Part shown: positions 39,049 through 57,976 of the stretch, piece by piece
Position numbering within the stretch: the stretch's first letter is position 1
Layout of the letters: each line of letters begins with the position of its first letter
From: Terriglobia bacterium
Lineage (GTDB): Bacteria; Acidobacteriota; Terriglobia; Bryobacterales; Bryobacteraceae
Reading direction: 5' to 3'
Length of the DNA stretch: 64,000 nucleotides
NCBI GenBank assembly: GCA_021325235.1
Contig: JAJPHN010000051.1
Location: 124,001 to 188,000 of the forward strand
The notes under the pieces: generated by a model
The model's input: the letters and a program-made list of their open reading frames with translations, nothing else
Databases searched by the model: none
Told to the model about the DNA's origin: nothing
Program-made: the position numbers and the translations under genes

Positions 39049-40719
39049 ATGCGCGCAGGAATTCTGATCGGCCTTCTTTCCGTTTCCGCTCTGCTCTTCT
39101 ACGGAACTGAAGCAAGCACCATCCGCTTCGAAGATGCAACAGCAAAGAGCGGCGTTTCCTTTATCACGCGCAATTCCGCCACTCCGAATAAGAACCAGAT
39201 CGAAACGATGGTCGCTGGAGTCGCTCTGATCGATTACGATCAGGATGGCTATCCCGATATCTACCTCGTCAACGGCGCGGAGATCCCTTCTCTGGCGAAA
39301 ACGTCTTCCGCGTACTGGAACGGCCTGTATCACAACAACCACGACGGCACATTCACAGACGTAACCGAACGCGCCGGCGTGCAGGGCGCGGGATACGGCA
39401 TGGGCGTCGCGGTAGGCGATTACGACAACGACGGCTATCCCGATCTCTTCCTGGCAAACGTCACCGGCAATCAACTTTTTCACAACAATCGCGACGGCAC
39501 GTTCACGGAAGTAACCCGCGCGGCCGGCGTGGAAGGCGCGAACTACAAGGGCAAGAAGATGTGGTCGACCGCCGCGGGCTGGTTCGATTACAACAATGAT
39601 GGACGGCTCGACCTTTTCGTCGTGAACTACTGCGTCTGGGGCGTGAACCAGGATCCGTACTGTTCGTCCCCGAAGGGCGGCCGCTCGTATTGCAGCCCGC
39701 GTTTTTACGAGCCGCTCCATAACACCCTCTATCGCAACGACGGCAACGGCCATTTCACGGACGTTTCCGACGAGACCGGAATTGCGAAGAGCTTCGGGCG
39801 CGGCATGAGCGTCTCGTTTGCCGATTACGACGGCGACGGTTTTCTCGACGCGTTCGTAGCGAACGACAACGATGCCAATTTTCTGTTTCACAACATCGGG
39901 GGCAAGCGTTTCGAGGAAGTCGGGACGGAGGCCGGCATCGCGTATAACGATAACGGCAAAGCGCTCTCCGGTATGGGTTCCGATTTTCGGGACGTGAACA
40001 ACGACGGGCGGCCGGACATTTGGCACACCGCTGTGGAGCACGAGACGTTTCCGCTGTATCTGAACATGGGCAAGCTTTTCTTTGCCGCCGGCGCATCGAG
40101 CGGGTTGGATCGCTGCACGGTCAACATGTCGGGCTGGGGTAATGGCATCTTCGATTTCGATAACGACGGCTGGAAGGATTTGTTTGTCGCGCGTTCGAAC
40201 GTGCTCGATAACATAGCCGATCTCGGCACTGGGCGCGAGTACTTCGAGCCGAATTCTGTGTTTCGCAATCTAGGCAATGGTCAGTTTGAGGATGTGAGCG
40301 CCCAGGCTGGTCCGGATTTTCAGGCAGCGGCAGCACATCGCGGCGTAGCGTTCGGCGATCTGGACAACGATGGGCGGATCGATGCGGTTGTGAGCGTGCT
40401 CGGCGGCAACGTGAAGGTGCTGCGAAATGTTTCGGCTAACTCGAATCACTGGCTTGTGCTGAAACTGCGCGGAACCCGCAGCAACCGGATGGGACTGGGC
40501 GCGCAGATCCGCCTCACTACCGAAGGCGGCAAGGCGCAGTGGAACGAGGCAACTACCAGCGTCGGCTACGCGAGCTCGAGCGACGCGCGCGTGCATTTTG
40601 GTTTAGGCGCCGCCGCTTTGGTACGCGAACTCGAGATTCGCTGGCCGAGCGGCATACGGCAGACAGTACGCAATGTAAGAGCGGATCAGATGCTCACCGT
40701 CGAGGAAGCCGCGCCATGA
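39049..40719 (+). CDS. CRTAC1-family protein (VCBS/FG-GAP repeats, ASPIC/UnbV tail), copy 1
   Basis: 556 aa with an N-terminal signal (ILIGLLSVSALLFYGTEAS). Several Ca-binding repeats are visible, such as DYDQDGYPDIYLVNG, DYDNDGYPDLFLANV and DYDGDGFLDAFVAND, which form an integrin-like propeller. The C terminus is an ASPIC/UnbV domain (GLGAAALVRELEIRWPSG). The family is exported and abundant in Acidobacteria and Planctomycetes, with no settled function. The stop overlaps the following TPR gene by four bases. Confidence 0.9.
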   Translation: MRAGILIGLLSVSALLFYGTEASTIRFEDATAKSGVSFITRNSATPNKNQIETMVAGVALIDYDQDGYPDIYLVNGAEIPSLAKTSSAYWNGLYHNNHDGTFTDVTERAGVQGAGYGMGVAVGDYDNDGYPDLFLANVTGNQLFHNNRDGTFTEVTRAAGVEGANYKGKKMWSTAAGWFDYNNDGRLDLFVVNYCVWGVNQDPYCSSPKGGRSYCSPRFYEPLHNTLYRNDGNGHFTDVSDETGIAKSFGRGMSVSFADYDGDGFLDAFVANDNDANFLFHNIGGKRFEEVGTEAGIAYNDNGKALSGMGSDFRDVNNDGRPDIWHTAVEHETFPLYLNMGKLFFAAGASSGLDRCTVNMSGWGNGIFDFDNDGWKDLFVARSNVLDNIADLGTGREYFEPNSVFRNLGNGQFEDVSAQAGPDFQAAAAHRGVAFGDLDNDGRIDAVVSVLGGNVKVLRNVSANSNHWLVLKLRGTRSNRMGLGAQIRLTTEGGKAQWNEATTSVGYASSSDARVHFGLGAAALVRELEIRWPSGIRQTVRNVRADQMLTVEEAAP

Positions 40720-42833: not shown

Positions 42834-44507
42834 ATGCTCGTTCCGTTCATTCGCCGAATCGGGCCAACAGTATCAATCCTCCTTGCGGGCGTGGCGCTGG
42901 CTGTTCTCATCTGCGGTACCCCGGCTAGCCTTCCCCTCCGGTTTGAGGACGCCGCTCGGGAAAGCGGGCTTAACTTCGTACTCGACAATTCAGCCACACC
43001 GCTGAAACATCAAATCGAAACGATGATCGGAGGCGTCGCGGTGCTCGACTACAATCACGACGGACGTCCCGATATCTACTTTGTCAACGGCGCGCGCTTA
43101 CCGGACATGGACAAGTCCGAGCCGAAATTCTGGAACCGCTTATACCGCAACGATGGACGAGGGAAGTTCACGGACGTAACCGATCAAGCGGGCGTACGCG
43201 GTGTCGGTTACGGTATGGGCGTCGCAGTTGGCGATTACGATAACGATGGCTACCCCGACATCTACATAGCCGGTGCGAATCGGAATCAGTTGCTCCATAA
43301 TAATCGGGATGGCACCTTCAGCGATGTGACAGAAAAAGCAGGTGTGGCGGGCCTTCTGCGGAGCTCCGGGAAAAAGCCGCTGGCGGTAAGCGCAGGCTGG
43401 TTCGATTACAACAACGATGGATTGCTCGATCTATTTGTCGTCAATTACCTCGACTGGTCCATGGATCATGAGCCACCCTGCTACTCGAACCACATCCGGG
43501 CTTATTGTTCGCCTGCAAGTTATCAAGGCGAACCAAGCATGCTGTTTCGCAACAACGGCGATGGCACATTCACTGACGTTTCCGAAAGCTCAGGAATCAG
43601 CCGCTATACCGGAAAGGGCATGGGGGAGGCGTTTGCGGATTACGACGGCGACGGCTATACCGATATCTTCGTCGCCAATGACACGTATCGCAATTTTCTC
43701 TTCCATAACCGGCGCGATGGCACGTTCGAAGAAGTGGGCATCCTCGCTGGAATTGCGTATAACGAGAACGGGAAATCAATAGCCGGCATGGGGGCCGATT
43801 TCCGCGATGTAGACAATGACGGGCGCCCCGACCTTTTTGTCACGGGCATGATCAACGACACATTTCCGCTGTTTCGCAATTCAGCGGAGGGCTTTACGGA
43901 CATCACGAGCCGCGCTGGCCTCACACACGCGACCCTGCGCCTGACTGGATGGAGCAACGGTATTTTCGATCTGGACAATGATGGCTGGAAAGATCTCTTC
44001 ACTGCGAACGCTGGCATCCTTGATAACTCGCGCGAGATCGATGGCACGGATTATCTACAGCGGAATCTGGTTCTGCGGAATGAGGGCGGAAGCCGCTTCG
44101 AGCCGGTTCCAATCTCCCGGCATGCGGCAGCCCATCGTGGCGCCGCTTTTGCTGACTTCGACGGTGACGGCAAGGTGGACATTGTCGTGAGCGTCTTGAA
44201 CGGGCCGGCGGAACTGCTGCTGAATCGCAGCCCGAATGCTAATCACTGGCTCGATATCGAACTTGAAGGAACCAAAAGCAATCGCGATGGATTAGGCGCG
44301 CGGATCGCGGTACGCACTTCCTCGGGTACGCAGTACAATCACGCCACGACCAGCGTCGGCTACGGCTGTTCGAGCGATAAGCGCGTCCATTTTGGGCTGG
44401 GCACTGCAACGCGCACTACCGAAATCAGAGTGCTTTGGCCCAGCGGCCGAAAGCAAATTCTGAACGATATCGCTGCTGATCAAGTCTTGCACATTCGCGA
44501 ACCCTAA
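42834..44507 (+). CDS. CRTAC1-family protein, copy 2
   Basis: 557 aa, same architecture and almost the same length as the copy at 39 kb. A signal/anchor segment (VSILLAGVALAVLICGTPAS) is followed by NSATPLKHQIETMIGGVAVL, repeats such as DYNHDGRPDIYFVNG, DYDNDGYPDIYIAGA and DYDGDGYTDIFVAND, and an ASPIC/UnbV tail (GLGTATRTTEIRVLWPSGRK). The two are clearly paralogues. It precedes two glycoside hydrolase-like genes on the same strand. Confidence 0.9.
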   Translation: MLVPFIRRIGPTVSILLAGVALAVLICGTPASLPLRFEDAARESGLNFVLDNSATPLKHQIETMIGGVAVLDYNHDGRPDIYFVNGARLPDMDKSEPKFWNRLYRNDGRGKFTDVTDQAGVRGVGYGMGVAVGDYDNDGYPDIYIAGANRNQLLHNNRDGTFSDVTEKAGVAGLLRSSGKKPLAVSAGWFDYNNDGLLDLFVVNYLDWSMDHEPPCYSNHIRAYCSPASYQGEPSMLFRNNGDGTFTDVSESSGISRYTGKGMGEAFADYDGDGYTDIFVANDTYRNFLFHNRRDGTFEEVGILAGIAYNENGKSIAGMGADFRDVDNDGRPDLFVTGMINDTFPLFRNSAEGFTDITSRAGLTHATLRLTGWSNGIFDLDNDGWKDLFTANAGILDNSREIDGTDYLQRNLVLRNEGGSRFEPVPISRHAAAHRGAAFADFDGDGKVDIVVSVLNGPAELLLNRSPNANHWLDIELEGTKSNRDGLGARIAVRTSSGTQYNHATTSVGYGCSSDKRVHFGLGTATRTTEIRVLWPSGRKQILNDIAADQVLHIREP

Positions 44508-47902: not shown

Positions 47903-49558
47903 TCAGCGCGCGTCTTCCCGGATGTGCAGAATGCGATCGCATGCCGGATGCCGGATGATCTGTTCGGTACCGCTCGGCCAGCGAATCTGAATTTCGCGAA
48001 TGCCGATTTCCGCACCCAATCCGAAGTGGGCGCGGCGATCGCTCGAAGACATAAATCCCGAACTCGTGCCTACCTGCGTAGAAAGTGTCCGGCCGGAGTT
48101 GGTGACGAGCTTGAGGCGCGCACCTATTGCATCGCGGTTACTTCGAGTGCCGGTGAGATCGAGCGTGATCCAGTGATTGTTACTCCCCGAATTGAGCAGG
48201 ATCCTAGGCGTCTCGTTCAGTCCCGTAATCACCAGGTCCGGGGCGCCGTCATTGTTCAGGTCCGCGCGAGCGCTGCCGCGGTGGAAGCCGATGGGCAGAA
48301 AATCCGGTCCCATTCTGTCCGAGACGTCGCTGAACGAGCGTCCCGCGTCGTTATGCCACATCGTATCGTGCTGCTTCGCGTTCGCACCGAGGTAATCCAC
48401 ATCGCCATTCGCCGAGTAAATGTCGGGCCAACCGTCGTTATCGTAATCGATGAAATGCGTGCTCCAGCCGGAAAAACTTCGGCTGAGCCGCTCGATGCCC
48501 GTCCGCGGCGATACATAGCTGAAAAGCCGGCCACGCTCGTTGTGAAAAAGCGCGAAGGTCTGCGCGTCGAGATCGTTGTAGAAGATGTCGGGCCAGCCAT
48601 CGTTGTCGTAGTCCGCCGTATCCGCGCCCATACCGGATACCGTCGAACCATTTTCGTTGTATGCCACGCCGTAGAGCAATCCCACTTCCTCGAACTTCCC
48701 GTGTCCGCGATTGAGATAAAGGAAATTGCGTTCCGTGTCGTTGGCGATGAAGACATCCATCAGCCCGTCGCCATTGAAATCGGCGGCCACGATGCCCATA
48801 CCCTTGCCGGCTGATTTGCCGAACCCCGAATTCTCGGTAACGTCCTCGAACTTGCCATGCCCCAGGTTGTGATAGAGCCGGTTTGGTGTGCTGCGATAAC
48901 GCGTGGGACTGCAGTAAACTTCAGTGATTCCGTCCGAAGCGAAACATCGAATATCGCTCTCCGGCGTCCAGGTGGTGTATTCGGAGACCGCAAGGTCCAG
49001 TAAGCCGTCGTTATCGTAATCGAACCAGACCGCTGCGACACTGATGATATCTCGCGGCTTGGTGTCGATTCCTGACATTGCGGTCACATCGCTGAACGTG
49101 CCGTCGCCGTTGTTGTGATAGAGAACATCGCGTCCGGCGCTCGCCAGGAAGAGGTCCGGATGTCCGTCATTGTCGTAATCGCCAACGGCAATCCCGAAGC
49201 TGTAGCTTAGCTTCGCACCCTCAAGCCCGGCTTTTCGGGTTACCTCATCGAAAGTGCCGTCGCCGCGATTGCGCAGGAGCGCGTTGAAGTAAGAGGGATC
49301 CGTCTTGCGCAACTCGGGGAGCGGCGAACCGTTTGTGAAGAACAGATCGATGTTGCCGTCGCCGTCGTAATCAAAGGCCGCAACCCCGCCGCACATGCTG
49401 CCGACGAAATACTTGTGTCCCGGATAGCCGTTTCGGGTTCTATACGAGAACCGCGACAGCATCGCGACGTTCCTGAACTGTGGCCGAGTGTTTGCGCCGC
49501 CGGTCTCCACAGCAGCAAGAATCGCGCCCAGCAACGTGGCAGCAAACAGCCATTTCAT
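47903..49558 (-). CDS. CRTAC1-family protein, copy 3
   Basis: 551 aa from ATG 49558. Signal peptide MKWLFAATLLGAILAAVE. Repeats include DYDGDGNIDLFFTNG, DYDNDGHPDLFLASA and DFNGDGLMDVFIAND, and an ASPIC/UnbV tail ends the protein (GLGAEIGIREIQIRWPSG). It is more divergent than copies 1 and 2, lacking their NSATP(N/L)K start. It is translationally coupled to the SDR gene of the apiose operon (ATGA overlap), so it may be expressed with apiose catabolism. Confidence 0.9.
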   Translation of the reverse strand: MKWLFAATLLGAILAAVETGGANTRPQFRNVAMLSRFSYRTRNGYPGHKYFVGSMCGGVAAFDYDGDGNIDLFFTNGSPLPELRKTDPSYFNALLRNRGDGTFDEVTRKAGLEGAKLSYSFGIAVGDYDNDGHPDLFLASAGRDVLYHNNGDGTFSDVTAMSGIDTKPRDIISVAAVWFDYDNDGLLDLAVSEYTTWTPESDIRCFASDGITEVYCSPTRYRSTPNRLYHNLGHGKFEDVTENSGFGKSAGKGMGIVAADFNGDGLMDVFIANDTERNFLYLNRGHGKFEEVGLLYGVAYNENGSTVSGMGADTADYDNDGWPDIFYNDLDAQTFALFHNERGRLFSYVSPRTGIERLSRSFSGWSTHFIDYDNDGWPDIYSANGDVDYLGANAKQHDTMWHNDAGRSFSDVSDRMGPDFLPIGFHRGSARADLNNDGAPDLVITGLNETPRILLNSGSNNHWITLDLTGTRSNRDAIGARLKLVTNSGRTLSTQVGTSSGFMSSSDRRAHFGLGAEIGIREIQIRWPSGTEQIIRHPACDRILHIREDAR

Positions 49559-50328
49559 CTGCGTAGCGTAAGGGGATGATACAACGACTGTCCGCCATCC
49601 ACCGAGATCACCTGTCCTGTCACATGCCGGGCCTCTTCCGAAGCGAGCCACACAACCGTATGCGCGTGATCTTCGGCTTCAGCAAGCGTTCCGGTGGGGA
49701 TCATGGTCAGGTAGTCCTCGATTGCTACATTGCGAGCGGCGGCCGTGTCGCGTAGCATGGCCGAGTCCGTCATGCCCGGACAGATACAGTTCACGGTTAT
49801 TCCATGTGGTGCTGCTTCCACGGCCAGACAGCGCGCGAAATGAATCGCAGCCGCTTTGGCTGCGCAATACGCGATCTGATTCGTGCGCGTGATCCATCCG
49901 GCGATAGAAGAAATCACCACGATTCGACCAGCTCGCTGCATCGTCATGCGTCGTAACGCGGCTTGCGAGCACAGAAATACTCCCTTCGCATCCACCGCAA
50001 AGGTTTCATCCCAGTCCTGCTCGGGGAGGGTTTCACACGAACCGGCACGAAATACGCCAGCGTTGTTTACCAGCAACCACAACGGTCCAAAGCGCTGCTC
50101 GGCGGCTTCAAAGAGGTTTTGCACATCTGCTGGTCGCGTGACATCGGCTGCTAGACCAGCCACCTCGAATCTGTCCTGCTTCAGCTTCTGTTCCGCGATT
50201 TCGGTCGCCTCCGGATCGCGATCGTTGATCACGACGCGCATTCCTCGCTCGCACAAGACCCGCGAAATGACAAACCCGATCCCGCGTGCGGCACCTGTGA
50301 CCAGAGCGGTTTTCCCGGCCAGGCTCAC
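49555..50328 (-). CDS. SDR-family oxidoreductase
   Basis: 257 aa from GTG 50328. Classical SDR features: TGAARGIG (residues 11-18), NNAG (88-91), catalytic Ser140/141, Tyr154 and Lys158 (YCAAK), and a C-terminal VISVDGGQS. It should reduce or oxidise a small alcohol or ketone with NAD(P). It is co-transcribed with the ketopantoate-reductase-like gene (GTGA overlap) and downstream of the apionate genes. In that context it may act on a C4 sugar such as erythrulose; this is inference. Confidence 0.9.
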   Translation of the reverse strand: MSLAGKTALVTGAARGIGFVISRVLCERGMRVVINDRDPEATEIAEQKLKQDRFEVAGLAADVTRPADVQNLFEAAEQRFGPLWLLVNNAGVFRAGSCETLPEQDWDETFAVDAKGVFLCSQAALRRMTMQRAGRIVVISSIAGWITRTNQIAYCAAKAAAIHFARCLAVEAAPHGITVNCICPGMTDSAMLRDTAAARNVAIEDYLTMIPTGTLAEAEDHAHTVVWLASEEARHVTGQVISVDGGQSLYHPLTLRR

Positions 50329-51260
50329 TCGGCCTCTCCGTGGGTCGCGGGGCGCCGGTACTCGCGTCCTTTCATCAACTCCGTGATCGCTGTATTGTAT
50401 GGCGCCGAGAGCCCAAGCGTTTCGCTTTCTCGCGCCACGTATCCATTCAGCGCATCGATTTCGGTGCGCCGCCCGCGAGCCAGGTGCTGCGCCATCGAGA
50501 CGCGGTGAAATTTATGCGAGCAGTACTCTTTCACTGTCGCAACCGGATCCGGGTCATCGAGCACTATGCCTTTTGCCTTCGCGAGCGCCAAGGCTTCCTC
50601 CAGAACTCTTGTCTGGAACTGGTCAAGCTCCGGTACTTTCCGGATGTGTCCCGGACGCAGACCAGTGATCGCGCATATTGCATTGATTCCGCAGTTGTGG
50701 ACGAACTTGCTCCAGATTGTGGCAATGATATCCTCCACTAACACCGGATGCAGCCCGGCGCGCTCGAAGAGATCGCATACTCTGAGCAGCCGCGCGGAAC
50801 GCGAGTGGTCCAACTCACCCAGGTAGGTTGGTCCATTATTCGTATGGCGAACGAAACCGGGTTCAGCAATATCCCCGCTCTGGAAACTGAGCCCGGCGAG
50901 TACCCGCCGGGGGCCCACAACCTCGCTCAGAATCTCGATGTTCCCCATACCGTTTTGAATCGTGAGGCAGAAGCCTTCGGGCTTGAGCACCTGACTCGCC
51001 GCCTGAGCTGCATCGCGCGTAGAATACGCATTGACGGCTATCAGTACCGCATCGGCAGAAGGCGCCCGCTGCGCATCGGTGAAAGCCTCTGCGCGAATTT
51101 CAAAACTGCCTGTCAGGCCCTCAACTCGCAACCCGTTCTCGGCGATGCGCTCGATGTGTTCCTTCCAGATATCTACGAACGCGACCTGCACACCTATTCG
51201 CGCCAGATTGCCGCCGTAAACGCAACCCATGTTCCCGGCGCCGATGATCACCCATTGCAT
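50325..51260 (-). CDS. Ketopantoate reductase-like (ApbA/PanE family) oxidoreductase
   Basis: 311 aa. GAGNMG (residues 7-12) is the nucleotide-binding loop, IQNGMGN is the ApbA active-site Asn segment, and IIATIWSKFVHNCGINAICAITG supplies the catalytic Lys. The family makes pantoate, but its genomic place between an SDR and the apionate enzymes argues for another 2-keto substrate. It starts nine bases after the TIM-barrel gene. Confidence 0.88.
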   Translation of the reverse strand: MQWVIIGAGNMGCVYGGNLARIGVQVAFVDIWKEHIERIAENGLRVEGLTGSFEIRAEAFTDAQRAPSADAVLIAVNAYSTRDAAQAASQVLKPEGFCLTIQNGMGNIEILSEVVGPRRVLAGLSFQSGDIAEPGFVRHTNNGPTYLGELDHSRSARLLRVCDLFERAGLHPVLVEDIIATIWSKFVHNCGINAICAITGLRPGHIRKVPELDQFQTRVLEEALALAKAKGIVLDDPDPVATVKEYCSHKFHRVSMAQHLARGRRTEIDALNGYVARESETLGLSAPYNTAITELMKGREYRRPATHGEAE

Positions 51261-51269
51261 GGTTTTTTC

Positions 51270-52067
51270 TCAGTCTGCGATAAGCGTCCGGAGATAACGA
51301 ATGCTCTCCTCGCACCAGCGCTTCTCTTTCGCTGCGGTTTCTTCGAGGGTCGATTCGGGCGGCGGCCAGAGTTCGAGAATGACGGTTCCTGTAGCGCCAA
51401 GCGACCCCAGCCGTTCAAGGAGACAACGCACATCCAGCATGCCTTTTCCGGCCGGCGCGCCGCTGATCCGAAATCCCATCTGATGCGGTTCGCGCACAAC
51501 GATGAAATCCTTGATATGCAGACTGACCGTCTGAGGGCCCAGAGTCTCCACGATCTGCTCGGGTCCTTCAAGCGCGCCAAAAGAGTTGGCCGTATCGAGA
51601 CAGATCCCGACATGTGCGTCCGCTATTTCGCTGATAATCGCTGAGAGGACGCGCGCGCGAAATCGGTCGTGATTCTCCAGAGCGAGCGTGACACCTGCGT
51701 CGCGCAGACGGGGCACGATTGCCCGCACTACGCGCACGACCTCGGCCGGCGGGGGCTCATAGCCGGGAGCATCGATGACGGCCCGCAGAGTCCGCGAATT
51801 GCATGCGCCGCAAAGTTGGATGTATTCCTCAATCTTGCGCTCCGAAAGGCCGCGCAGCCCCAATTCCAGTTCGATTCCCGCCCGATCCGCCACATCGCGA
51901 ATGACTGAGATTTGCTTCGAATCCGCCTGATGCAGCGGAATATTATCCGCGATTTGCACAACGTGTAGCCCTAATTCCTGCGCACGCCGGATCAGACCTG
52001 CGGCATCCATGCAACCGGCATTCAGCTGCCATGCGCACGCGTATGACCCGAGGCCGAGCCTTCTCAT
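51270..52067 (-). CDS. Xylose-isomerase-like TIM-barrel protein, candidate 3-oxo-isoapionate decarboxylase
   Basis: 265 aa. Metal ligands expected in this superfamily are present: Glu131 (LENHDRF), Asp158 (GICLDTANS), His184 (SLHIKDF) and Glu232 (VILELW). The start (LGLGSYACAW) and VVQIADNIPLH are typical of sugar-phosphate isomerase/epimerase-like proteins. It overlaps the ApnO-like gene by four bases. OiaC, which decarboxylates 3-oxo-isoapionate to L-erythrulose, is a member of this fold, so the position strongly suggests that role. A generic epimerase is the alternative. Confidence 0.7.
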   Translation of the reverse strand: MRRLGLGSYACAWQLNAGCMDAAGLIRRAQELGLHVVQIADNIPLHQADSKQISVIRDVADRAGIELELGLRGLSERKIEEYIQLCGACNSRTLRAVIDAPGYEPPPAEVVRVVRAIVPRLRDAGVTLALENHDRFRARVLSAIISEIADAHVGICLDTANSFGALEGPEQIVETLGPQTVSLHIKDFIVVREPHQMGFRISGAPAGKGMLDVRCLLERLGSLGATGTVILELWPPPESTLEETAAKEKRWCEESIRYLRTLIAD

Positions 52068-52915
52068 TTGCGGCCGAATGTTGCCGCCGAGGTGATCGCT
52101 TTGATTTCGCCCAGTACGTTCTCCGGCTCAAAGACTCTCTTCCAATCCGGTTGCAGCAAAAACTTCTTGCCGCGTTCGATGGCCAGCAGGGCACCGTCAG
52201 AGAACGGTGAGCCTACGTATCCGAACAGAATGCCGATATCGATATTGATGTGGCCGAGAATGAAATCGCGCGCAGCTTCTTCCGGTACTCCGCGCTCTAC
52301 CGCTTCGTCAATAGCTTCTTTGATGACCACCATGCACGTGGCAACCACGGTTTCCGAGAGCGCCGGCTCAAGAATCGCCATCTGCTCCACGGTGACGCGA
52401 TGCGCCTTCATCACGGGCGCGAACATCTCGCGGCAGATCGCCTCGCCGACCGCATAGTCGCTTTCCGGCCCCTGCATCAGGGCGCAGACAATATTCTGCC
52501 GCGCCCTAATCGCTCCGAAGAAATCGCGGCGCGCTTCAGGATCGGTCTCATCGTTCACCACCGGCGGATGACAAGGGTGCGTGACGAAGTAAGTAATGTC
52601 TGCGCGCTCCGGCAAGTCGCCGCTGTAGGGAGCAGCCGGATCAAGGCAGATGACCATAGCGCCGCTGCGCAGGCCGGAAACGATCGAAGGCGCAATACTG
52701 CCGATCAGTGCATCGGGTAGCGCAAGAATCGCGATATCGGCCGCGGCCACGGCCTGATCGTGCGGTGTGATCTCCAGACCGCGAGCGTGCAACCGCTCAA
52801 TGCCAGCCGCACTGATCTCGACATAAAGCAGGTTATGCTCCGAGCGGCGCAGGTTCTCGGCGATACGGCATCCCATTTTGCCGCCTGCGCCGAACACAGC
52901 AATGGTGCGTGCCAT
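52064..52915 (-). CDS. apnO: D-apionate oxidoisomerase candidate (phosphogluconate dehydrogenase C-terminal family)
   Basis: 283 aa. The Rossmann loop is GAGGKMG (residues 9-15). THPCHPPVVNDE, ALMQGPESDYA and LEPALSETVVATC are motifs of the PGDH_C-type family that includes ApnO. ApnO oxidises and rearranges D-apionate to 3-oxo-isoapionate with NAD. The divergent neighbour is an ApnL-type lactonase, which supplies D-apionate, so the assignment is supported by context as well as by sequence. Other members of the family are uncharacterised. Confidence 0.78.
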   Translation of the reverse strand: MARTIAVFGAGGKMGCRIAENLRRSEHNLLYVEISAAGIERLHARGLEITPHDQAVAAADIAILALPDALIGSIAPSIVSGLRSGAMVICLDPAAPYSGDLPERADITYFVTHPCHPPVVNDETDPEARRDFFGAIRARQNIVCALMQGPESDYAVGEAICREMFAPVMKAHRVTVEQMAILEPALSETVVATCMVVIKEAIDEAVERGVPEEAARDFILGHINIDIGILFGYVGSPFSDGALLAIERGKKFLLQPDWKRVFEPENVLGEIKAITSAATFGRK

Positions 52916-53060
52916 GTAGCCATTCTAGGCATCCGCAGACACTCAATTCTGTGTGCTTTGCGGCGGAGTTTCCAATGGATCGATCAGTATCGTAATAGAA
53001 CCGCACAGTTTCCTCAGAGCTTTCAGGCACCGGCCTTCAGTAGACTGGAAATCCATCCAG

Positions 53061-54608
53061 ATGCCCCCGCCCGCCGTCCACGAGTTGCGCGCCGGATTGC
53101 TCATGTGTCAGTACACGAAAGGCTCTGTGCGCCACATTCGGTTGGGCAACTGCGAAATTCTCCAGCATGTCTATTTCGCCCTCCGCGGCCAGCGCTGGGA
53201 AACCATACCGCTTCTGATTAAACGAGAAGAAATTCGAGCGCGTGATCTCAGCTTCGAAATAGAGCTTGAAGTCGAGCACAAAGAGGGTGAACTCGCGTTT
53301 TTCTGGCGCGGACGGATCACCGGAACCGAAGACGGACGCATCTCGTATGCAACAACGGGCGAGGCGCAAAGCGATTTTCTGCGCAATCGCATTGGACTGT
53401 GCGTCCTGCATCCTGCCCAAAGTTGCCGCGGTCTCGAATGTATGCTCTTGCATGCCGACGGTTCCACTGAAATCAGCCGCTTCCCCGATTTGATCTCGCC
53501 ACATCAGCCGTTCTTCAATCTGCGCGGCATCACGTACCGTCCGATACCGGGCATAACCGCTGAAACGCTCTTTGGCGGCGACGTGTTCGAAACGGAAGAC
53601 CAGCGCAACTGGAGCGACGCCTCGTTCAAAACATATTCCACTCCGCTGTCAATCCAGTATCCGGCGCAGGTGCGGCGCGGTGACGAAGTCTCACAGCAGG
53701 TTGAGCTGCGTGTGACGGCAGAGTCACCCATGCAAAGCGCCGCAGCTCATTCGCCGGTCAGCATCGCCGTGGACACGGAAGCCGCTTCCCCGATGCCATG
53801 GCTCGGTGTCGTTTGGGAACCTCAGATTCCGATCGGCGGCTTCGATTTTTTCCGGCTTGAGCTGGATCTGAGAAAACCTGGCTGGCAAGACGATCTGGCG
53901 CAGGCTGCCGCGATCGGTGTACGGCTCGAAATCGCCGCGCTGGCGACCAGCAAAGCTGATCTCGAAAACCTGCGGTCTGTCGTTGAGCCATTTCTTGCAA
54001 AAGTCATCCGGTTCGCTGTCTTCGACCCCGTAACAAATGTTTCAGATCCTGCCTTGCTCGCCGTGACCCGCTCGCTCTTGGCTCCGCTGCCCGTAGGCGG
54101 CGGATCGCATAAGTACTTCGCTGAACTGAATCGTAATCGCGAAATTGCATTGGGCGGCGATTTCGTTGTTTGGCCTGTCGATCCGCAGGTGCATGCTGAT
54201 GACGCGGAAACAGCGATCGAAAATCTCGCCGGTCAAACTCCGCAACTGGAAACAGCACGAAGCTTCTGCGGCAATCGCGGTCTACACATTTCGCCCGTCG
54301 CGGTGCCGAAATTCGACGGTAACGAGGGCTGGTGCACCATCTGCCTGAAAAATCTCGCTCTCGCAGGAGCCCGCTCGCTGACGTTTGCGCGCGCGCTGCC
54401 ACTGATCGAGGAAGTCGCTCGGTTTCGGGCGGATCAGGTTGTGGCCTGTACATCTTCAGATCCGCTCGCAGCCGATGCACTGATTCTGCGTAAAGGCCGG
54501 AAGTCGTTCGCCTGGGTGGTGAATTTGCGTAATCGAGCGCAGAACGTCGAACTTGCAAACCGCTCGTTTTCACTCGATTCATACGGAATTGTTCGGGTCC
54601 AGTTGTAG
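53061..54608 (+). CDS. apnL: D-apionate lactonase (ApnL family)
   Basis: 515 aa from ATG 53061; the longer open frame upstream is not family sequence. The N-terminal domain has SVRHIRLGNCEILQHVYFA and the family landmark ETEDQRNWSDASFKTY (residues 177-192), also ISPHQPF. The middle barrel has VGGGSHKYFAELNRNR (345-360) and DPQVHADD (374-381). A small beta domain closes it. ApnL hydrolyses D-apionolactone, the product of D-apiose dehydrogenase, to D-apionate. The barrel seems compact. No signal peptide, so cytoplasmic. It is followed after seven bases by the dehydrogenase candidate. Confidence 0.85.
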   Translation: MPPPAVHELRAGLLMCQYTKGSVRHIRLGNCEILQHVYFALRGQRWETIPLLIKREEIRARDLSFEIELEVEHKEGELAFFWRGRITGTEDGRISYATTGEAQSDFLRNRIGLCVLHPAQSCRGLECMLLHADGSTEISRFPDLISPHQPFFNLRGITYRPIPGITAETLFGGDVFETEDQRNWSDASFKTYSTPLSIQYPAQVRRGDEVSQQVELRVTAESPMQSAAAHSPVSIAVDTEAASPMPWLGVVWEPQIPIGGFDFFRLELDLRKPGWQDDLAQAAAIGVRLEIAALATSKADLENLRSVVEPFLAKVIRFAVFDPVTNVSDPALLAVTRSLLAPLPVGGGSHKYFAELNRNREIALGGDFVVWPVDPQVHADDAETAIENLAGQTPQLETARSFCGNRGLHISPVAVPKFDGNEGWCTICLKNLALAGARSLTFARALPLIEEVARFRADQVVACTSSDPLAADALILRKGRKSFAWVVNLRNRAQNVELANRSFSLDSYGIVRVQL

Positions 54609-54615
54609 AGGGTAA

Positions 54616-55641
54616 ATGCCCCCGCTTCGTTTCGCGCTCTTCGGCACTGGTTTCTGGTCGAGATTCCAGCTTGCCGCCTGGCAGGAGGTTGGCGGCGTCG
54701 AATGCGTTGCTCTCGCCAATCGCACCGCGGACAAGGCAGTGCGCGTCGCAGATGATCTCGGGCTACGGGCCCACATCTACACGGACCCGGAAGCGCTCCT
54801 CGCGAACGAGCAGCTCGATTTCGTCGATGTCGTGAGCAGCGTCGAAACGCACGGTCCGCTGGTGCACTTGGCCGCCGCGCACGGCTTACCTGTCATTTGC
54901 CAGAAACCGCTCGCTGATGACTGGCGCCAGGTGCAGAATATGGTGCGCGAGTGCGAACGCCGCGCGCTCCCGTTTTTCGTGCATGAAAACTGGCGATGGC
55001 AGGCGCCCATACGGAAAGTAAAGCAGTTGCTTTTGCGTCCTGAAGCCGGCCCTGTCTATCGCGGGCGGCTGCGCATGGTGAGCTCGTTCCCGATCTTCGA
55101 AAATCAGCCCTCGCTCAAAACGCTGGAGCGCTTTCTTGTGATGGATATGGGTTCCCACATCCTGGATGTAGTGCGGTTTCTCTTTGGCGAGCCCGCCAGC
55201 ATCTATTGCACACTCGCCCGAGTACGGCCTGACATCCAGGGTGAAGATGTCGCAACGATTATCCTCAGAACGGCCACGAACGCCACGATCGTCTGCGAAC
55301 TCGGTTACGCCGGCACACCCCTCGAACACGACCACTTCCCGCAGACCGTGGCCTTTATCGAATGCAGAGATGCTTCGATCGAGCTTGGCCCGCATTATTG
55401 CGTGCGCCTGACAACCAAGCGCGGAACGGAAACCCTGCGCGCTGCTCCGGCACGCTATGAATGGTCCGATCCTGCCTACGAAGTGGTGCACGCCAGCATT
55501 GTCGATTGCCACCGCGACCTGCTGGCTGGCCTGCGCGGTCAGCACGAACCGGAAACCAGTGCCGCCGACAATCTCAAAACGATGCGCCTCGTCTTCAGCG
55601 CATACGATTCGGCGCAGACGAACCGTGTGATCGAACTCTAG
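54616..55641 (+). CDS. apsD: Gfo/Idh/MocA oxidoreductase, candidate D-apiose dehydrogenase
   Basis: 341 aa with AGAGGG before the ATG. GTGFWSRFQLAAW is the nucleotide-binding start. The QKP triad (96-98) replaces the common EKP, and VHENWRWQ (122-129) and DMGSHILDVVRFLFG line the active site. ApsD, which oxidises D-apiose to D-apionolactone with NAD, belongs to this family. The gene is in the same two-gene unit as apnL, so its product would be the lactonase's substrate. Dehydrogenases of this family vary widely in substrate, so the symbol is provisional. The stop overlaps that of the GH140 gene by four bases. Confidence 0.75.
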   Translation: MPPLRFALFGTGFWSRFQLAAWQEVGGVECVALANRTADKAVRVADDLGLRAHIYTDPEALLANEQLDFVDVVSSVETHGPLVHLAAAHGLPVICQKPLADDWRQVQNMVRECERRALPFFVHENWRWQAPIRKVKQLLLRPEAGPVYRGRLRMVSSFPIFENQPSLKTLERFLVMDMGSHILDVVRFLFGEPASIYCTLARVRPDIQGEDVATIILRTATNATIVCELGYAGTPLEHDHFPQTVAFIECRDASIELGPHYCVRLTTKRGTETLRAAPARYEWSDPAYEVVHASIVDCHRDLLAGLRGQHEPETSAADNLKTMRLVFSAYDSAQTNRVIEL

Positions 55642-56933
55642 CGGCGCTCCAATTCAAGGACCAGAACCCAGTCGTTGCCGCGCGCATACGGGCCCGGCGC
55701 TTGCCACAGCAACTCGCGATTTTCAGGATGTGCTTCCCGCATTGCGCCCGTGCGCGGATCGAACCACCTGCTGCTCGCAATTTCAGGCAAGCCCGACTTT
55801 CGCAGGCGAATCGTGCCGCCCCCTGGGAGGTAAGCGACGATTATTCCTTCCGCGCCTGCGACACCGGCGTGCTGCCATCCATCTTGAGAATTGTCGACGA
55901 CCAGCGAGTCAGCTGGCCTGAGCGATAGAAAGTCGAGATTTGAAAAAAGCTCGCGCACGTACCGCATCTGCTCCGCTCCGGGCAGATCCAGAGCGCTTCG
56001 CCAGTCGCCGTGCGCAAACCCGATTGCCTCTCGCTGGTGCGTGAGCATTTGCCAGACTGCATGACACCCGTACGTATGCCCGCAGGCTCCTGCCAGCAAC
56101 GCCCAGTACGCCGCCTGGCGCACATCATAATCATCGAAGTAGCCTTTTTCATCCGGCTTCCAGTCGACCGGATGATCTTCGTAACGCGGTTCGCCGTCGA
56201 GCACGGGCTTGGAAGGCTTGAGCCCGTAATCACGCCCGACATTCAGATAGTTCGGAAAATCACGGCTGTGGTGGCCGGATTGGATCATGTTGAAATCAAG
56301 CCACGGTTCGTTGTGTAGCTGGGAGGAGGAGCCAACGCCCGGTGGGTGAAAAGTAATAAGATGCGCACCGCGGTCGCCTGCGCGCAGTCCTTGCGCCATC
56401 GCACGCCAGATCGCTTCCACCCCGCAGGGCGAGCGGTCGCCACCGAGAATCCAGACGATGTTTTGCGCCTGCCGGTAGCGTTCGCCGAGCAGGAATCCGT
56501 AAGCGCGCGCATTTTCTTCGTTGAAGATGATACGCGGAGGCGCCTTTTCCCATGGCGCCGCAACCACTTTGTTTCCCCAAGTCGGGAGCAATCCGAGATA
56601 GAGTCCCTTTTCCGCGGCTCGTGCAACAGTCCAGTCCACGAGCTGAAAATAGCCTTCGTCGATGCGCCTTGGATCGAAGTCGATGAGCGGCCAACGCCCG
56701 TACGCGTTAGGAATCTCGAGGCCACCGAATTCAGCTAGTAGAACCGCCTGAATGACCGTGAAGCGCTTCGCAGCGCGGTTTTCGAGATAGAAATCGATCT
56801 CTTCACGCTTCAGCCTGTGAATTAACTCCCACGCCGTATCGCCCAGCCAGAAGAACGGTGCGCCATCTGCATGGACGAGAAAACGGCCGTTGTCTGAAAT
56901 GCGCAGCGGACCGCGGCTCAACTCTGCGGACAT
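55638..56933 (-). CDS. GH140 apiosidase-like glycoside hydrolase (DUF4038)
   Basis: 431 aa from ATG 56933, which overlaps the epimerase stop. An apiosidase-like TIM barrel begins ISDNGRFLVHADGAPFFWLGDTAWEL. The GGD acid/base region is WILGGDRSPC (Asp166) and the nucleophile region is VLDGEPRYE (Glu248), matching the Asp/Glu pair known in GH140. A C-terminal beta domain (putative collagen-binding type) contains IIVAYLPGGGTIRL. The founding member removes apiose from rhamnogalacturonan II side chains. No signal peptide is visible, which suggests a cytoplasmic enzyme acting on imported oligosaccharides. Confidence 0.85.
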   Translation of the reverse strand: MSAELSRGPLRISDNGRFLVHADGAPFFWLGDTAWELIHRLKREEIDFYLENRAAKRFTVIQAVLLAEFGGLEIPNAYGRWPLIDFDPRRIDEGYFQLVDWTVARAAEKGLYLGLLPTWGNKVVAAPWEKAPPRIIFNEENARAYGFLLGERYRQAQNIVWILGGDRSPCGVEAIWRAMAQGLRAGDRGAHLITFHPPGVGSSSQLHNEPWLDFNMIQSGHHSRDFPNYLNVGRDYGLKPSKPVLDGEPRYEDHPVDWKPDEKGYFDDYDVRQAAYWALLAGACGHTYGCHAVWQMLTHQREAIGFAHGDWRSALDLPGAEQMRYVRELFSNLDFLSLRPADSLVVDNSQDGWQHAGVAGAEGIIVAYLPGGGTIRLRKSGLPEIASSRWFDPRTGAMREAHPENRELLWQAPGPYARGNDWVLVLELERR

Positions 56934-57976
56934 GATTTCCGGCTGACTTCGGCGGTTTTTTCCATTGAGGCGCAGCTCTCTCGCCAAAGCCTGATCAGCT
57001 CATCGTAGAAGTGGTCGTCGTCCGAGTTGTCGAAACCGTAAGTTCGATCGACCCAGGCAATCGTCTCGGCCAGTCCCTCCCGCAGTGGAATCCTGCACGT
57101 GAACTCAAAATCGCGCTTCGCTGCTGAATTATCAAAAATGTTGTTGAACCGGAAATTGTCAGCCGCGGTCGCCGCGCGTGCCGGCCATAAGCGCGCAAGC
57201 AGATCGGTCGGTATATGCACGATCTCCGGATCAGGAGCGTTCATCGCGGCCGCAACCAGCCGCTGATACTGATCCCATGTAACCGTTTCATCGCCGCTCA
57301 GGTTATAAGCCCGGCCGAGTGTGCGTTCGCTCTCGGCAGCCTGCAGAAATGCTCGCGCAACATCTTCGATGTGGTAGGAAGTCCAGAGCGAAGATCCGTC
57401 GCCATGCACCACGATTGCTTTGCCTTTGCGGAGTCGATCGAGCAGTATGGTGCGCCCTCCAAGCGAGTGCACGATATGTCCGCGATGCGCACCGCCCGGG
57501 CCATAACAATGCACCAGACGAAGAGTCGTAAACGGGAATCCAGTGTCCTCGTAAGCGTCAAAGAGCAGTTCCTCGCATTTCGCCTTACCGCGACCGTAAT
57601 CGTTAATCCCTCCAAGCGGAGCATTCTCATCGATCGGATATTTCGCTGCGGGCTTGATGTATGCGTCGACTGTGCTCGCCACCAGCACACGCCCGGCACG
57701 CTTCGCGAAAACCTCGATAAGTCCGCGCGCGTCCTGCGGCTGGTAACAGATCATATCGAAAACGGCGTCGAAAGTTCCCGCCTTCGCCAGATCAGCCGCA
57801 AACTGGCGCGGGTCGGCGCGATCGCCCACGATTCGCCCAACTCCTTCGGGCAGCGGAATCGCCGCGAGCCCACGGTTGTAGACCACAACGTGATCTCCGC
57901 GCTCGAGCAACTGGCGCACCAGCGCTGTGCTGATCAGTCCCGTGCCGCCGATGACAAGCGCTCTCAAACTCTGCAC
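56918..57976 (-). CDS. NAD-dependent epimerase/dehydratase
   Basis: 352 aa from GTG 57976. An extended-SDR Rossmann start (ALVIGGTGLISTALVRQLLERG) and the IEDVARAFLQAA segment are present. In place of the usual YxxxK, the catalytic region is INDYGRGKAKCEELL, which still gives Tyr and Lys (YGRGK). Its fold class includes nucleotide-sugar epimerases and CSP41-like proteins. It overlaps the GH140 gene by 16 bases, so the two are made together; a role in apiose or nucleotide-sugar conversion is inferred only. Confidence 0.88.
   Translation of the reverse strand: MQSLRALVIGGTGLISTALVRQLLERGDHVVVYNRGLAAIPLPEGVGRIVGDRADPRQFAADLAKAGTFDAVFDMICYQPQDARGLIEVFAKRAGRVLVASTVDAYIKPAAKYPIDENAPLGGINDYGRGKAKCEELLFDAYEDTGFPFTTLRLVHCYGPGGAHRGHIVHSLGGRTILLDRLRKGKAIVVHGDGSSLWTSYHIEDVARAFLQAAESERTLGRAYNLSGDETVTWDQYQRLVAAAMNAPDPEIVHIPTDLLARLWPARAATAADNFRFNNIFDNSAAKRDFEFTCRIPLREGLAETIAWVDRTYGFDNSDDDHFYDELIRLWRESCASMEKTAEVSRKSCPQS

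Follow-up and report, generated by a model that had tools for sequence, protein, structure and literature searches.

A ketopantoate reductase-family dehydrogenase and a short-chain dehydrogenase in a predicted apionate operon of a Terriglobia bacterium

Organization of the apionate operon

The analysed stretch (here called the window) comprises 64,000 nucleotides of contig JAJPHN010000051.1 of a Terriglobia bacterium of the order Bryobacterales, and the genes in question encode a ketopantoate reductase-family protein (KPR) and a short-chain dehydrogenase (SDR). An earlier note, made from the sequence alone, had placed these two genes in an apionate operon, overlapping or adjoining a decarboxylase candidate, and had suggested that they could process L-erythrulose, or a product of an apiose branch, by redox reactions rather than by phosphorylation. 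The coordinates of both open reading frames (ORFs), their Pfam assignments and the gene junctions were confirmed. The operon lies on the minus strand inside an apiose island and is tightly packed in the order ApnO-OiaC-KPR-SDR, with an ATGA overlap at the ApnO/OiaC junction, a spacing of 9 nt between OiaC and KPR, and a GTGA overlap in which the stop codon of KPR meets the GTG start codon of SDR. Two genes diverge from the operon, encoding a lactonase like ApnL and a dehydrogenase like ApsD; beyond them, the minus strand again carries an apiosidase-like gene. The features of the island are as follows:

49555..50328, minus strand: SDR, short-chain dehydrogenase, 257 aa (ORF, family models, N-D-x-D after the second strand)
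50325..51260, minus strand: KPR, ketopantoate reductase-family dehydrogenase, 311 aa (ORF, Pfam and NCBIfam models, PDB matches, alignment)
51270..52067, minus strand: OiaC-like TIM barrel of xylose isomerase type, candidate 3-oxo-isoapionate decarboxylase (named from the adjoining ApnO)
52064..52915, minus strand: ApnO, D-apionate oxidoisomerase homologue (Pfam domain PGDH_C; PDB matches 5t57, E = 1.4e-91, and 3c24, E = 2.7e-82)
52953..54608, plus strand: ApnL-like D-apionate lactonase (233.5 bits with the D-apionate lactonase model, under its cut-off of 750)
54616..55641, plus strand: ApsD-like GFO/IDH/MocA dehydrogenase (family models), candidate D-apiose dehydrogenase
55638..56987, minus strand: apiosidase-like glycosidase (PF13204)

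The true start of the ApnL-like ORF is probably further in, since the model match starts at residue 41. For the OiaC-like protein no sequence match in PDB and no match to a curated OiaC model was obtained. Its predicted structure (pLDDT 82.8) was nearest to D-psicose 3-epimerase (2hk0, TM-score 0.76, 17% identity), and the residues E131, D158, H184 and E232, which presumably bind the metal, were invariant across 10 aligned sequences including that of the window, as in metal-dependent barrels.

The operon may extend to a fifth member, a gene for a secreted-looking protein of the FG-GAP/ASPIC-UnbV type (47903-49558, named by eye), whose ATG overlaps the stop codon of SDR by 4 nt (ATGA). Three genes of this type (39049-40719, 42834-44507 and 47903-49558) occupy a region of about 10 kb next to glycosidase-like genes (also named by eye). 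In a related genome of the order (G068) the corresponding position is occupied by an unrelated ORF of 1010 aa without Pfam match.

Coenzyme site and conserved residues of KPR and SDR

KPR carries the Pfam domains ApbA and ApbA_C, both well above their cut-offs, and passed none of the PanE equivalog models among those listed. In the alignment its coenzyme site reads D-x-W-x-x-H, the same as in 3wfi, 2ew2 and 8wl1, with an arginine at this place in 3hwr and 5hws. The arginine expected of PanE after the second strand, which we take to bind NADPH in ketopantoate reductases, is replaced in KPR by D-I-W. This D-x-W motif is also found in the KPR homologues of two other genomes (G254 and G256) and is hence not specific. 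The residues K185, N189, N193, S255 and E267 are conserved, and the lysine, asparagines, serine and glutamate are presumably catalytic; H188 and H259 were confined to the KPR clade among 22 aligned rows.

The enzymes 3wfi and 2ew2 are NAD-dependent D-mandelate/D-2-hydroxyacid dehydrogenases of the same family, which KPR matched with E values of 1.4e-27 and 3.2e-30 (phmmer) and with which it has the D-x-W-x-x-H motif and the catalytic residues in common. In a FastTree tree, however, the four KPR orthologues formed a single clade (support 1.000) apart from these two proteins, and the common motif therefore does not stem from common descent. A D-mandelate dehydrogenase of a KPR-related family is described as highly active on C3-branched keto acids (PMC4230899), the E. 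coli ketopantoate reductase is reported to have been tried for possible acceptance of 3-substituted 2-oxo acids (PMC10127515), and members of the family are said to have been misnamed earlier as pantothenate enzymes (PMC4353338). A predicted structure of KPR was not used because of its low pLDDT (59.7).

In the alignment KPR keeps the residues of an enzyme for 2-oxo or 2-hydroxy acids, and for this reason L-erythrulose is an unlikely substrate; the KPR family requires an acid substrate, and L-erythrulose has no carboxylate. Action on erythrulose is thus improbable for KPR, while SDR could still act on it.

SDR was matched by adh_short and adh_short_C2 of Pfam well above their cut-offs. It carries N-D-x-D after the second strand, which we assume to indicate a preference for NAD, and the presumably catalytic Y-x-x-x-K, which is kept in the orthologues. 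The attempt to deduce its substrate from family models led nowhere: 228 NCBIfam models matched and none of the 25 shown reached its cut-off, the near-misses being FabG (221.2 of 222 bits) and glucose 1-dehydrogenase (213.8 of 215), with the GolD/DthD-family model at 191.1 bits (cut-off 286). SDR is accordingly described here as a predicted NAD-type sugar or sugar-acid dehydrogenase, whose substrate could be the C2 epimer, which it would oxidise, or else erythrulose or a tetritol.

Distribution and linkage of KPR and SDR

The searches covered 257 genomes of the order and a sample of 396 from the phylum. An ApnO homologue was found in 49 of the 257 genomes (53 matches), and 52 fetched loci were compared together with the window. 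An OiaC-type locus was present in 13 genomes, 28 genomes had only loci of the RuBisCO-like type (those with OiaK- and/or RuBisCO-like genes), and 8 had neither or a mixture, some of these loci being cut by contig ends. In one locus (L039) the OiaK and OiaX models matched at 526.5 and 449.5 bits, below their 700-bit cut-offs. A RhaT-like transporter gene, a candidate apiose or apionate transporter, accompanied OiaC in 9/13 OiaC-type loci (L079, L080, L074, L081-L083, L085, L086 and L042).

KPR was matched at E <= 1e-40 in 15 of the 257 genomes, of which three are close (the window genome, and G067 and G068 at 67% identity) and the other 12 are at 33-37%. SDR orthologues (at least 60% identity, with at most 10 candidates scored per genome) were found in four genomes, namely the window genome, G067, G068 and G118. 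All genomes with an orthologue of KPR (3/257) or SDR (4/257) were among the 13 with an ApnO and OiaC locus (hypergeometric test with genomes taken as independent, 1.0e-4 and 4.0e-6, respectively). Among the compared loci, only those of the window and G068 contain both orthologues; in G067 the distance from the pair to ApsD is 5.7 kb, and that to the ApnO of the genome's own OiaC-type cluster is about 10 kb. A scan of GTDB contigs with two short peptide patterns, which divergent orthologues may escape, gave three loci, of which two (L186 and L187) were taken to be G067 and G068 again and the third (L185) belongs to a betaproteobacterial metagenome-assembled genome (MAG). The MAG proteins are 79% (ApnO), 50% (OiaC), 68% (KPR) and 63% (SDR) identical to those of the window. 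Outside the window genome, KPR orthologues were thus found in three genomes (66-68% identity), each with SDR adjoining and with ApnO and OiaC within about 10 kb, and in the phylum sample only the window's own copy was seen (1/396).

KPR and SDR were thus seen together with ApnO and OiaC in the betaproteobacterial MAG as well as in 3/3 genomes of the order that bear KPR, and given this linkage we assign both genes to the apionate segment. The KPR-SDR pair is a rare, conserved and optional part of the apionate operon that follows ApnO and OiaC across phyla.

Several further features were seen at related loci. Ribulokinase-type and AraD-type genes (L185, 1147-3413) adjoin OiaC-ApnO-KPR-SDR in the MAG, and no AraA was seen on the 7.6-kb contig. 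In G067 a gene of the AraD1/GguC family (L159, 11390-12388; 415.6 bits, cut-off 340) is divergent from KPR-SDR. In G031, which belongs to the genus of the window genome, a KPR-family gene lies beside an OiaC homologue (L160, 1254-8514; about 35% identity each) together with genes for a zinc alcohol dehydrogenase, an FAH-family hydrolase and periplasmic sugar-binding proteins, and no ApnO match was obtained in that genome. In G068 ApsD is divergent from ApnO (L035) and no ApnL match was found in the 18 kb fetched, which suggests a missing or different lactonase. Two distant plasmid KPRs (36% and 34% identity), from the 2 of 94 records that were inspected, sit among CoA and shikimate genes and are uninformative on apiose. 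In three alphaproteobacterial plasmids (L192, L193 and L194) split transketolases accompany an SDR paired with an OiaC-like TIM barrel, DAK-type genes being present in 2/3.

Kinases and the fate of L-erythrulose

By tblastn, no kinase of the DAK, FGGY or OiaK type was found in the window (other kinase families and the isomerases LerI and DerI were not searched for). The earlier note had held that erythrulose kinase genes just outside the window would speak against its proposal; blastp gave no DAK match in the 16 kb to the left, and the right end of the window is 409 bases short of the contig end. The absence of an erythrulose kinase was thus borne out for these three types in the window and did not hold for the genome, which encodes one complete Dak1+Dak2 protein of 569 aa on another contig (C22), in surroundings where no apiose genes were seen.

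Dak1 was found above its Pfam cut-off in 36 of the 257 genomes, including 5/13 with an OiaC-type locus and 1/28 with the RuBisCO-like type (Fisher's Exact Test, p = 0.008; p = 0.023 for OiaC-type genomes compared with all others of the order; two genomes with matches below the cut-off, G007 and G030, were excluded). DAK is thus commoner in OiaC-type genomes, as would be expected if it serves erythrulose. In the stretches fetched, some of which end with their contig, one query each for DAK, FGGY and OiaK revealed no such kinase at any OiaC-type locus compared, including the 11 besides those of the window and G068; in G125 a Dak1 gene lies on the same contig about 8 kb from ApnO, outside the stretch fetched. 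Since OiaC-type loci elsewhere in the order likewise show none of these kinases in the stretches fetched, their local absence in the window is ordinary, which weakens the idea that KPR and SDR replace a missing local kinase. Together with the complete DAK of the genome, this result counts against redox in place of phosphorylation. No Dak1 match was obtained in G067, in G068 or in the MAG; within the order, 8/13 genomes with an ApnO and OiaC locus had no Dak1 match.

Proposed role of the KPR-SDR pair and alternative explanations

The reading that we prefer, although only tentatively, is that KPR is an NAD-dependent D-2-hydroxyacid dehydrogenase acting at C2 of apionate, accompanied by an NAD-type SDR in the apiose island, and that erythrulose goes to the unlinked DAK. 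The apiosidase would release apiose, ApsD would oxidise it, ApnL would open the lactone, ApnO would convert D-apionate to 3-oxo-isoapionate, and OiaC would decarboxylate the latter to L-erythrulose. Upstream of erythrulose, KPR would act in an NAD(H)-dependent manner on C3-branched acids, at C2 of D-apionate/2-oxo-apionate. This position was chosen because 2-oxo-apionate has the skeleton of ketopantoate, with a hydroxyl and a hydroxymethyl group replacing the two methyls, and because D-apionate and (R)-pantoate have the same configuration at C2. KPR may salvage 2-oxo-apionate that escapes from ApnO; alternatively, it may make the C2 epimer usable, in which case SDR would carry out the oxidation. 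Phosphorylation by the unlinked DAK kinase would be the simplest fate of L-erythrulose in the window genome. A route without DAK may exist in the relatives without a Dak1 match (G067 and G068). That KPR, as an NAD-dependent D-apionate 2-dehydrogenase, and SDR make or recover 2-oxo-apionate and thereby permit apionate use without a DAK-type erythrulose kinase, perhaps in those two genomes, is a rather doubtful extension of this reading.

A number of observations weigh against the role at C2 of apionate. Oxidation at C2 is, we assume, already covered by ApnO. KPR was missing from 10/13 OiaC-type genomes, and is therefore not needed for the route, and SDR was missing from 9/13. In G118 the SDR orthologue belongs to a different sugar locus, next to a TIM barrel with weak resemblance to IolO. 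The tree places the KPR clade next to the 3hwr group (support 0.853) and not with the D-mandelate dehydrogenases. The MAG has no close ApsD (best match 25%), so that its cluster may start from something other than apiose. The decarboxylase name of the TIM barrel is itself inferred from its place beside ApnO, as is L-erythrulose as the product: the window protein shares only 26-27% identity with the barrel of the Pantoea cluster with ApnO and kinase, and 33-36% with those of transketolase-type clusters (Shinella, Sinorhizobium and Salipiger), in a comparison that covers 4/16 records with plasmid OiaC matches. A Sinorhizobium ApnO region is unannotated in its record.

Two further points against an apionate role would fit an ordinary ketopantoate reductase of the pantothenate pathway that was caught in the operon: KPR passed the apbA_panE subfamily model (237.6 bits, cut-off 141.35), and it is the sole ApbA_C protein of the window genome, in which PanB is also present. 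ApbA_C was found in 82/257 genomes of the order, and the distribution of the two families argues otherwise, given that G067 (99% complete) and G068 (91% complete) carry KPR without a PanB match and that five genomes (G118, G075, G125, G127 and G166) have PanB without any ApbA_C protein. The NAD-type motif and the failure to pass any listed PanE equivalog model point the same way, and we rejected a pantothenate role, as extremely unlikely, on the basis of the coenzyme motif and of where PanB and ApbA_C occur. It is also very unlikely that KPR and SDR are passengers without a role in apiose use, as their absence from most OiaC-type genomes might suggest, given that the linkage was found in four genomes, which show three arrangements and include one from another phylum.

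Alternatively, the pair could supply OiaC with another sugar acid, branched or longer, for example to yield a ketopentose, in which case the cluster would serve more than apiose. The AraB- and AraD-type genes of the MAG cluster and its lack of a close ApsD, the G031 locus with a sugar ABC transporter, the FAH-family hydrolase and no ApnO match, and the AraD1/GguC gene beside the G067 pair all point in this direction; apiose genes are, however, present in the clusters of the window and G068, AraB/AraD-type genes were not found in the other loci searched, and we give this possibility only a small share of our belief. The redox handling of L-erythrulose by SDR, perhaps with KPR, which would lead for example to a tetritol, or onward to a C4 acid on which KPR would act at C2, and would replace the kinase and isomerases, is slightly less probable still. 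It would agree with the lack of a local DAK-, FGGY- or OiaK-type kinase, with the lack of Dak1 matches in G067, G068 and the MAG, and with the match of SDR to the GolD/DthD-family model, even if below its cut-off. The window genome nevertheless has a DAK, OiaC-type loci without KPR and SDR likewise show none of these kinases nearby, a ribulokinase-type gene lies within the MAG cluster, and KPR retains the catalytic residues of a family that needs an acid. As a whole, the earlier interpretation was partly supported.

Relation to known apiose pathways

Carter et al. in 2018 reportedly described decarboxylation of D-apionate by the route OiaC-LerK-LerI-DerI. On plasmid pPAT9B04 of Pantoea sp. At-9b, genes for a DAK, a TPI-family protein, a TIM barrel and a PGDH_C protein lie side by side with rpiB nearby, resembling this set. 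A PGDH_C protein (ApnO, 40% identity) stands beside an OiaC-like TIM barrel (27%) in both Pantoea and the window, whereas the DAK and TPI-family genes of the Pantoea operon are replaced in the window by KPR and SDR, the DAK being unlinked. LerK, LerI and DerI are described in PMC10733421. The window ApnO is 70-74% identical to those of some loci of the OiaK-OiaX (RuBisCO-like) route and is closer to them in the tree than to most OiaC-type loci, but this route was rejected for the window, since tblastn found no OiaK-like or RuBisCO-like gene there. ApnO, OiaK and RuBisCO-like enzymes are reported for a marine apiose user in PMC11747546. For an Escherichia apiose cluster, two oxidoreductases have been proposed to replace the apiose isomerase apsI (PMC13001218), which resembles our case in the idea that oxidoreductases stand in for something missing from an apiose cluster; that cluster, however, follows an apulose/transketolase route, both of its oxidoreductases are SDRs (30-32% identical to the window SDR), and no KPR is listed there.

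These comparisons suggest that the apionate operon with KPR and SDR is a variant of the known apiose pathway. A redox branch of apiose catabolism through a KPR-type apionate dehydrogenase was not found in print in searches of open-licence literature. Apiose is one of the sugars that characterise rhamnogalacturonan II, and the KPR-SDR linkage provides a marker for finding such clusters. If KPR does act on apionate, this would be a new activity in the KPR family.

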